DNA of 64,000 nt, from contig NZ_CP107905.1 in NCBI RefSeq assembly GCF_036014015.1, positions 9,858,001-9,922,000 of the forward strand. The letters are read 5' to 3'. Position 1 is the stretch's first letter. Each line of letters starts with the position of its first letter. Made by a program: the position numbers and the translations under genes. The DNA comes from Streptomyces sp. NBC_00457 (lineage in GTDB: Bacteria > Actinomycetota > Actinomycetes > Streptomycetales > Streptomycetaceae). The notes below the pieces were generated by a model. That model was not told where the DNA came from and searched no databases. It saw only the letters and a list, made by a program, of their open reading frames with translations. This document shows, in pieces, positions 1-4,699 of the stretch.

Positions 1-749
1 CGCGGGTCCCGGGTGGCGAACATGACGGTCCAGGTCGAAGCGGACCCGGACGGCACACTCGTACGGCCGAGGGACGAGCCCTCGGGGTGGCTGGCGCCCT
101 CGTCCCACGAGCGGTCGAGCCAGACCTCGTCGCCCGCGGCGCCGTTTTCGATGACGCCCCAGGCCATGCCGTTCTGCTGGTCGAGGTGCAGGCTGATGGT
201 GCGGCCGAAGAGAGTCGTCGACGGTACGGGGGTGTCGTCACCGGACGCCGTGGCGGGGTCGGCCCCGTCGCAGGACGTACCGTCGCACACTGTTGGGTAG
301 ACCCAGTCGGTGCAGGTGACGGCGGCGGCGTCGCCGCAGGCGCGGATCCAGCCGCGCCGGTGCCCCACCGGGTCGGTGATGTTGAACATCAGTGTGCGGG
401 TGCCGGTCCAGGTGCCGGGGATGCTCGCCCTGCCGAGCAGGGGCTCCCAGGTGGCGCCCCGGTCCCAGGACCGGTCCAGCCAGACCGAGTCGCCGGTCAC
501 GCCATTGTCGATGCTGGCCCACGCCATGTTGTCGGGGTCGGAGACGTGCAGCCGCAGGATCCGGCCGTTGATGTTCCGGTCCGGGACCGGGAAGGTGTCC
601 TTCTGCGCCCGCGTGGGGTCCAGCGTGTCGCACGCCAGCGCGCAGACCGCCGTCGCGGCGCGGGAGGGCGTGGGCAGGGCGACCAAGCCGGCCACGGCTA
701 GGGCCAGGGCCAGGAGGCCGGTCCACAGGCGATGTCTGCGCGCTGACAT
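1..749 (-). CDS. Secreted protein with tandem Asp-box-like modules (cut by window edge)
   Basis: The frame is open from ATG at 749 to the window edge (249 codons); the C-terminus is missing. The N-terminus is a signal peptide: basic residues, a Leu/Ala-rich core, then a cleavage region ending near PSRAA. Two copies of a module of about 100 residues follow. Each has a C-rich lead (VCALACD; TVCDGTSCD), an R-I-x-LH strand, MAW-x-x-I-x-NG, and VWLDRSWD. The first copy continues as DRGATW, matching the S-x-D-x-G-x-T-W Asp-box pattern, and ends in RRGWIRACG. The same module forms the N-terminus of the GH76 protein at 3203-4699. The gene starts 23 bases after the GH2 stop on the same strand, so it is probably the third gene of that operon. 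Secretion and polysaccharide or wall binding are inference; the rest of the protein is unseen. Confidence 0.8.
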   Translation of the reverse strand, partial: MSARRHRLWTGLLALALAVAGLVALPTPSRAATAVCALACDTLDPTRAQKDTFPVPDRNINGRILRLHVSDPDNMAWASIDNGVTGDSVWLDRSWDRGATWEPLLGRASIPGTWTGTRTLMFNITDPVGHRRGWIRACGDAAAVTCTDWVYPTVCDGTSCDGADPATASGDDTPVPSTTLFGRTISLHLDQQNGMAWGVIENGAAGDEVWLDRSWDEGASHPEGSSLGRTSVPSGSASTWTVMFATRDP

Positions 750-772
750 GACGTACCCGCCTTTCCGAACGG

Positions 773-3180: not shown

Positions 3181-3202
3181 GGGCATCAGCTGAACGCCCG
3201 CC

Positions 3203-4699
3203 TCACGGCGCCGCGTTGAGCAGATCGAGTGCGCTCTGCTGCCGAGCCGCGTCCAGCTTGTCGACCGGCCCGTACCAGCGCAGCCCGTACTGGTCGAGGG
3301 CGTTGCGGTCGCTCGCGTAGGCGCGGTCCGCCTGGCGTTGCAGATACGCCGTGTAGGGACGGTCCGGCAGCGCCGCGTTGAGCTTGCCCAGACCGCGCAC
3401 GTGCGCGCCCTTGAACGACGGCCCGTCGCCGCCGCAGTCGCCGCCTTCACACGGGTCGCGCAGGATTCCGTCGGCGGTGTGGAGCGAGGAGGCCGTGGTC
3501 GCGGCGTCGGCGATCTGCCGTGCCCGGGTCAGCAGCGCGCCGTCGCCCGTCGCCCGGTGCAGCTCGGTGAGGGCGCCGAGCAGGACGCCCTGGTTGTACG
3601 ACCAGACCGGCTGGCCGTTGTTGCGGCAGGTGGACAGGTCGATGCCGTCGTTCACCAGGTTCGAGGCGTTGATCATGCCGGTGCCCTGGAACCAGGACCA
3701 GCCGGCGCGGGCCCGGTTGAGATACGTCGTGTCGCCCGGGATGCGGTTGTGCAGGGCGGCGCTGAGCTGGATGTAGAGGGAGTTGGCGATGGCGTTCTTG
3801 TACGTCCTCGCCGTGCTCCACCACACCCCGCCACCGCACGTGCCGTCCCAGTACGCCGCCATGTGATCGGCGTCCGCGCGGGCGGTGTTCAGGTAGCGGC
3901 TGTCGCCGGTCAGGTCGTACGCGGCGATCCAGGCGAGCCCCCACCAGCCGGTGTCGTCGATGTACTCGTTGCGGAACTGCCCGCCTTGGGCGTTGAGGTT
4001 GAGGTCGTACGTGCGGGAGATCGCGTACGAGTAACTGCTCATGCCCGACACACGGATGTTGTCGATCACGGCGTTCAGCGCGTTGGCCGAGTTCCACCAG
4101 CCGGTGGTGTCGAACAGGCCGGTCGAGTAGTTGTAGAACGTCATCAGGCCGGTGGCCGCGGCGGTGCGCCGGTTGCCGGCGTTCCATGTGGTGCGGGCCC
4201 ATGGGGTGCAGGCGATCTCGGTGCGGTCCCCGGCCTTGCCGCAGGCGCGCAGGGCGCCGACGCCATGGTTGTTCCAGTCGTCCACGTTGTACATGAGCGT
4301 GCGCCAGCCTCGCTGTCCCGCGGGGACGGCGGTGTTGCCGAGCCTGCTTCCGGAGCTCCAGGTGCGCCCGCCGTCGAAGGAGCGGTCCAGCCACACCTCG
4401 TCGCCCGGGTTGCCGTTGCCGATGGACGCCCAGCCCATCGCGTCGGCGTCGTCGAAGTGGAGGGCGATCGACCGCCCGTGGATGCTCGCCGTGACCGGGG
4501 TCCGGTCGCCGGGGGAGAGGGCGGGGTCGCGGGCGTCGCAGTACTTGTTGCAGATGGTCGCGGTGACGGCGGGGTCGGCGGGCTCGGCGGCGGACGCCGA
4601 CTGCGGGGCGAGCGCCGCGAGCAGGGTCAGGGTGAGCGCGGCGGCCGGGCGTCTGAGGGTGCGGGGTCTCGGTGTCCGGAGTCTTCGTACGGGAGTCAT
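3203..4699 (-). CDS. Secreted GH76 family protein with N-terminal Asp-box-like module
   Basis: A 498-residue protein starting at ATG 4699, where GGGAG lies at proper spacing; an in-frame ATG 15 bases upstream lacks this. A twin-Arg-free signal peptide ends near SASAAEP. Residues of about 40-145 form one Asp-box-like module (ICNKYCDARDP, MGWASIGNG, VWLDRSFDGGRTW, ALRACG). The remainder is an (alpha/alpha)6 barrel-type catalytic domain of family 76, which contains endo-alpha-1,6-mannanases. The adjacent acid pair Asp248-Asp249 in YIDDTGWWG matches the catalytic DD of the family. Likely role: cleaving alpha-mannan from fungal walls or mycobacterial-type glycans outside the cell. It heads a minus-strand operon with the GH2 and the module protein and has a clear promoter and operator upstream. 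Confidence 0.85.
   Translation of the reverse strand: MTPVRRLRTPRPRTLRRPAAALTLTLLAALAPQSASAAEPADPAVTATICNKYCDARDPALSPGDRTPVTASIHGRSIALHFDDADAMGWASIGNGNPGDEVWLDRSFDGGRTWSSGSRLGNTAVPAGQRGWRTLMYNVDDWNNHGVGALRACGKAGDRTEIACTPWARTTWNAGNRRTAAATGLMTFYNYSTGLFDTTGWWNSANALNAVIDNIRVSGMSSYSYAISRTYDLNLNAQGGQFRNEYIDDTGWWGLAWIAAYDLTGDSRYLNTARADADHMAAYWDGTCGGGVWWSTARTYKNAIANSLYIQLSAALHNRIPGDTTYLNRARAGWSWFQGTGMINASNLVNDGIDLSTCRNNGQPVWSYNQGVLLGALTELHRATGDGALLTRARQIADAATTASSLHTADGILRDPCEGGDCGGDGPSFKGAHVRGLGKLNAALPDRPYTAYLQRQADRAYASDRNALDQYGLRWYGPVDKLDAARQQSALDLLNAAP

Follow-up and report, generated by a model that had tools for sequence, protein, structure and literature searches.

Glycoside hydrolases of family GH76 share a catalytic domain in which a DD motif is the catalytic pair, according to an excerpt of PMC12295086. 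The same excerpt has the authors terming the precise function of one solved member, CtGH76, unclear. A second body of background concerns the uncharacterised family DUF2690/YjfA. DUF2690 appears in the fungal secretome table of one paper, and YjfA is treated as an extracellular, sporulation-associated protein in a Bacillus subtilis exoproteome paper, both sources being represented here by excerpts. Within the literature searched, we recognised by title no functional study of DUF2690 or YjfA. In the GH76 literature of the searched collection (Streptomyces, Actinobacteria, and binding modules), judged by titles and the opening of abstracts, we found no description of the module reported below, which is apparently an undescribed branch and architecture of this known family.

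Gene organization and module copies

The window, by which we mean the whole stretch of 64,000 nucleotides that was analysed (G000:C1:9858001-9922000), is part of a 10.8-Mb genome and includes three closely spaced minus-strand genes. Gene 3 (P0002; 3203..4699; 498 aa) encodes a signal peptide recognized by eye, one module, and a GH76 catalytic domain matched by Pfam (residues 177-494; 3218..4171, minus strand). The middle gene of the apparent operon (773..3100) encodes a GH2 enzyme with a C-terminal AbfB domain. Gene 1 (P0123) starts at 749 and exits the window, which holds its N-terminal part (1..749), comprising a signal peptide by eye and module copies 1 and 2. In the whole genome its frame is 701 aa long (L004:8644-10749), with modules at residues 34-149 and 153-275 and a GH76 domain at 286-614, beyond the window edge. 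The initial annotation had rightly seen a secreted, two-module gene here; the genome reading corrects it in that the cut gene is itself a GH76 gene, and therefore both module-bearing proteins are GH76 enzymes. PF03663 matches P0002 and P0123 with 167 and 143 bits, the DD pair stands at 248-249 and 362-363, respectively, and both enzymes are predicted to be alpha-1,6-mannanases. Among solved structures, the gene 3 model is best matched by CtGH76 (39% identity, Foldseek E 1e-23), which, like BcGH76 (Aman6) and ShGH76A, shares its catalytic domain and DD motif. Out of the 498-residue query, these matches cover approximately 340-360 columns, the extent that the catalytic part should give, while the alignment to another GH76, 6u4z, reaches 502 columns, though at 11.7 A.

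The gene 1 frame is longer than that of its orthologue P0124 (701 versus 616 aa). With its additional tail, gene 1 runs over some 250 bases of a convergent gene judged by eye to be acyl-CoA ligase-like, and the stop of gene 1 therefore seems to have been lost or displaced.

Copy 1 of the module (residues 34-149 of gene 1; 303..650, minus strand) has four cysteines and an RACG motif, copy 2 (residues 153-275 of gene 1; 3..293, minus strand, cut by the window edge) gives the best DUF2690 match, and copy 3 (residues 48-167 of P0002; 4199..4558, minus strand) was located with the module profile. In pairwise BLASTP, with copy 2 as cut by the window and each E value holding for that single comparison, identity was 44/96 (46%, E 2e-26) between copies 1 and 2, 54/120 (45%, E 8e-30) between copies 1 and 3, and 45/96 (47%, E 1e-27) between copies 2 and 3. 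The three copies proposed in the initial annotation thus lie where it had placed them, in secreted proteins, with 45-47% pairwise identity at E<=2e-26. The repeated unit that it had put at about 100 residues exists, though with a length of 116-123 residues, and the RACG that it had credited to two copies occurs in all three, the window edge cutting copy 2 before that motif. Across the whole genome, where 150 of 254 first-look candidates were scored, the module profile returned only these three matches at E<=1, and a module-profile search found no module in the GH2-AbfB gene.

The module profile was built from 14 representatives of 372 full-length modules from 242 proteins, after cut-short modules had been dropped. 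Practically invariant among the 372 (in copy 3 numbering) are D8, R29, L33, W43, D53, W56, D58, and R59, as well as G64, G74, R104, C106, C117, T118, and W120; many of these invariant residues could be structural. All four cysteines are present in 365 of the 372 modules, both N-terminal ones being missing in six and one in a single case, and this pattern suggests two disulphides, C3-C7 and C106-C117. A 95% identical module occurs in P0012, a Streptomyces protein. P0107, whose record is named Stenotrophomonas, has a Streptomyces-type module enzyme (83% module identity); that record is perhaps mislabelled or from a mixed sample.

Kinship with DUF2690/YjfA

The initial annotation had recognized no named family for the module, but the module lands on Pfam DUF2690 (PF10901), which matches gene 1 with 33.5 bits for the window part (E 5e-8) and 31.6 bits for the whole protein, against a cut-off of 23. 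A landing on a described family was an outcome that the annotation itself had named as refuting, although we found DUF2690 to be a family with no function on record. On gene 3 there was no Pfam match to DUF2690 at E<=1. Profile-profile comparison indicates homology over the full length of the module (96%, E 4e-9, 102 columns). The two are bridged by an intermediate branch, made up of short secreted-looking proteins and of C-terminal domains from NlpC/P60 proteins (L013, L016), which matched the module at 99.7% (E 9e-27) and DUF2690 at 98.4% (E 8e-15), all of these E values being for single comparisons. From these sequence comparisons, we regard the module family as an Asp-box-bearing branch of the DUF2690/YjfA superfamily.

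Classical DUF2690 sequences resemble the module in their C...C-x-G-x-DP lead, AW motif, and C-terminal AC...CT. Unlike the module, the sampled classical rows have neither an Asp-box (0/21) nor the W-x-D-x-[ST] that precedes it (0/19), and they have an extra cysteine pair (MGC ... CxxAW) in 13/13 rows of the A2 set; the rows were chosen by a pattern requiring the lead and the first of the extra cysteines, such that these counts describe the classical type rather than all of Pfam DUF2690. Because that extra pair is missing from all 14 GH76-type modules of profile A1, we file the module as a branch of the superfamily and not under the classical type. Of 61 genomes of the genus that were sampled, 53 contain DUF2690, which also occurs in Bacillus subtilis. 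Classical domains stood on helix-turn-helix (HTH) proteins in both of the two cases checked, with an apparent membrane stretch, and the protein with the strongest DUF2690 copy in the window's genome has an HTH_31 domain plus a single membrane stretch recognized by eye.

Short proteins recorded as DUF2690, YjfA, or glycosyl hydrolase also resemble the module, having RAC...CT and, in 108 of the 120 listed, the Asp-box core. These and the NlpC/P60 relatives differ in having CAW where GH76 modules mostly have MAW or MGW, and in lacking a GH76 partner. Some of the short proteins may be fragments at contig ends. Several single-Asp-box proteins about 140 residues long (P0249, P0252, P0263, and others) are named 'glycosyl hydrolase' in public records, which is probably an over-annotation from a single BNR motif.

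Asp-box and predicted fold

By the consensus given in an excerpt of PMC2716378, complete Asp-boxes occur in two of the three window copies: SWDRGATW in copy 1 (447..470, minus strand) and SFDGGRTW in copy 3 (4358..4381, minus strand). The corresponding stretch of copy 2, SWDEGASH, is incomplete, as it is without the aromatic residue. The S-x-D-x-G-x-T-W pattern noted in the initial annotation is therefore a true motif, present once per module, yet it is full in only two copies of the three. Among the 372 modules, 354 have the S/T-x-D/N-x-G-x-x-W/F/Y core, versus 2.3% of composition shuffles. Where proteins have two full modules, the core is found in 127/127 first copies and 110/127 second copies, and copy 2 of the window is among the 17 second copies without it.

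An AlphaFold model of copy 3, for which the alignment held 34 of 43 representatives, is all-beta and forms one domain (mean pLDDT 93.2, pTM 0.87), with eight strands and no helix of four or more residues. Its Asp-box sits in the loop that connects predicted strands 54-60 and 72-77. From the strand pattern and weak matches, the predicted fold is a beta fold of sandwich-like type. Comparison with BNR/Asp-box folds, which the initial annotation had proposed, bears out a real single Asp-box, while the model of copy 3 shows no propeller. We considered and rejected an Asp-box beta-propeller, given one box per 120-residue module and eight strands in one high-confidence domain. That the module is an ordinary piece of an Asp-box propeller or sialidase is accordingly highly improbable: one relative, P0011, does score above the Pfam BNR cut-off (31.3 bits versus 27), but the box count and the self-contained beta domain (pLDDT 93) speak against it.

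Single Asp-boxes occur in Ig-like and jelly-roll domains, as excerpted from PMC2716378, so the presence of one is no sign of a propeller. The sandwich domains described in that excerpt (the chitobiase Ig-like domain, sulphite oxidase, and the reelin subrepeats) resemble the module in having one Asp-box hairpin in a beta domain, an analogy of motif only, as no solved structure was matched significantly in sequence. Since neither sequence nor Foldseek searches among solved structures gave a significant match to the module, the fold points to no ligand.

Distribution and phylogeny

At E<=0.01, related proteins numbered 1061 in one search and 619 in another, and the module recurs widely in GH76 enzymes, in keeping with the suggestion of the initial annotation that it is found beyond these two genes. 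We inspected the best 120 each of these sets and of a further 219 related proteins; GH76 (PF03663) was marked in 118 of the best 120 of the 1061 and in 118 of the best 120 of the 619, the window's own entries included. The module is N-terminal, in one to three copies, on GH76 enzymes that are secreted by eye, and by this architecture it is discrete and separate from the catalytic domain. When at most 44 candidates were scored per genome, 36 of 101 congeneric genomes had a module-profile match at E<=0.001 and 22 of 101, the window's own included, had a strong GH76-type match of 111 bits or more. The weaker matches in the genus include NlpC/P60 C-terminal domains and secreted-looking proteins of about 140 residues.

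In a midpoint-rooted tree of 71 rows (after thinning, with only 114 columns), one branch separates 19 classical DUF2690 rows from 52 others (99/99, 98% of bootstrap trees), and 46 of those 52 have a complete Asp-box. Pfam DUF2690 spans both sides of the tree, since PF10901 is marked on 13 of 27 short proteins from the module side. A single clade (100/100) unites all 19 sampled GH76 modules with one module of a zinc-protease-like protein. Copies 1 and 2 of gene 1 belong to different subclades (100/100 each), and on this evidence the duplications look old. The initial annotation had imagined a module spreading among enzymes; a single GH76-module clade with old-looking duplications argues otherwise.

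Two exceptional architectures were seen. P0015 has two modules after a HEFGHVLGFLHE zinc-protease-like stretch whose Pfam matches are below cut-off; every other row of the 20 in the GH76-module clade is partnered with GH76. In L038, an intermediate-type module is joined to a B-lectin-like domain (19.3 bits versus a cut-off of 32.4).

The tree also bears on a wall-attachment reading, in which the module would tie the enzyme to the cell wall of the producer instead of the substrate. In favour of it, C-terminal domains of NlpC/P60 proteins, which are presumed to be wall hydrolases, are among the relatives found outside GH76. However, NlpC/P60 and short proteins are intermixed outside the GH76-module clade, the GH76 modules being a clade of their own, and by eye we noticed no wall-sorting signal. 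We therefore consider attachment to the producer's wall unlikely.

Genomic context

A perfect palindrome, TGAGAGCGCTCTCA, lies at 4732..4745, 32 bases upstream of the gene 3 start, and we take it to resemble operators of the LacI family. Of the 80 loci retained for context analysis, 73 entered the palindrome count, short loci having been dropped. At two mismatches or fewer, the palindrome was found within 500 bases upstream of the module in 31 of these 73 orthologous loci, versus 0.07% of mononucleotide shuffles. At the same tolerance, 29 of 100 shuffled versions of the window contain it, and orthology could by itself account for some of its conservation.

The 80 loci were kept from 363 confirmed loci with a one-module enzyme, and flanks reached 3 kb at most. 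Downstream of the one-module enzyme, module frames of a two-module enzyme, or their remains, occur in 12/80 loci and a GH2 frame in 4/80 (three directly adjoining and one about 1.1 kb further on), while a divergent GH76 frame without a module lies upstream in 10/80. None of these arrangements was present within the flanks of 54/80 loci. The order GH76-GH2-GH76 of the window merges two of them, namely the downstream two-module enzyme and the downstream GH2. In two streptomycetes (L119 and L121), the downstream two-module GH76 genes look broken, with frame fragments or an internal stop.

Proposed role of the module

The homology, architecture, and conservation of the module are matters of direct computation. 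Across 36 orthologues, mean identity to P0002 is 85.8% for the module, 84.8% for GH76, and 44.4% for the leader, with module identity exceeding GH76 identity in 19 of the 36. Being as conserved as the catalytic domain, the module is no free linker. Moreover, the full-length AlphaFold model of P0002 has a pTM of 0.85, with 43 low-confidence leader residues, a value that would be hard to reach unless module and GH76 were placed consistently. Because of this equal conservation and full-length pTM, together with the architecture and the palindrome, we infer a glycan-binding rider on substrate-induced mannanases.

The main rival is a structural one, whereby the module packs on GH76 and stabilizes the secreted enzyme or shapes its substrate canyon without binding glycan. 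The high pTM and the equal conservation of the two domains are both consistent with such a role, as is the use of a single Asp-box for domain or subunit contacts in reelin and sulphite oxidase (PMC2716378, excerpt). However, related domains are also found by themselves, as short proteins, or joined to unrelated partners, and the two or three copies seen in some enzymes would be unneeded for a fixed GH76 contact. We regard this purely structural role as a real but lesser possibility.

The initial annotation had suggested polysaccharide binding or wall attachment, which is plausible. Our preferred reading, to which we give an even chance, is that the module is of the carbohydrate-binding type and holds the enzyme on a glycan. 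It is favoured by relatives on secreted or wall-directed proteins (NlpC/P60, the B-lectin-like fusion, and short secreted-looking proteins); classical DUF2690 on HTH proteins, and the zinc-protease-like partner of one close relative, lend mannan no support, and we found no relative with a known ligand. Under glycan binding, the module would be an extracellular accessory beta domain of 116-123 residues with one Asp-box hairpin, probably stapled by two disulphides, one within the N-terminal cysteine lead and the other joining RACG to the C-terminal CTxW. One ancestral actinomycete GH76 probably captured the module, which was then probably duplicated inside GH76 genes. Given the full-length pTM, it probably packs on the GH76 domain in a fixed orientation, and it may keep the enzyme attached to mannan, or to wall or cell debris that bears mannan, during cleavage of the alpha-1,6 backbone by GH76; a second copy would raise avidity. 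Expression may be substrate-induced through a LacI-type repressor, as the upstream palindrome suggests.

More speculatively, and in our judgement rather doubtfully, the GH76 module might found a new carbohydrate-binding module family, with the whole of DUF2690/YjfA being an extracellular glycan-recognition fold. Actinomycetes would use such a fold to direct mannanases, NlpC/P60 enzymes would use it to locate the wall, and in HTH membrane proteins it would be the external sensor through which wall or mannan fragments are reported to the cell. While the ligand of an orphan secreted domain is not guessable, a rider on a mannanase can be assayed on mannan. The GH76-attached branch, with its predictable enzyme substrate, thus gives the DUF2690 family a testable ligand hypothesis.
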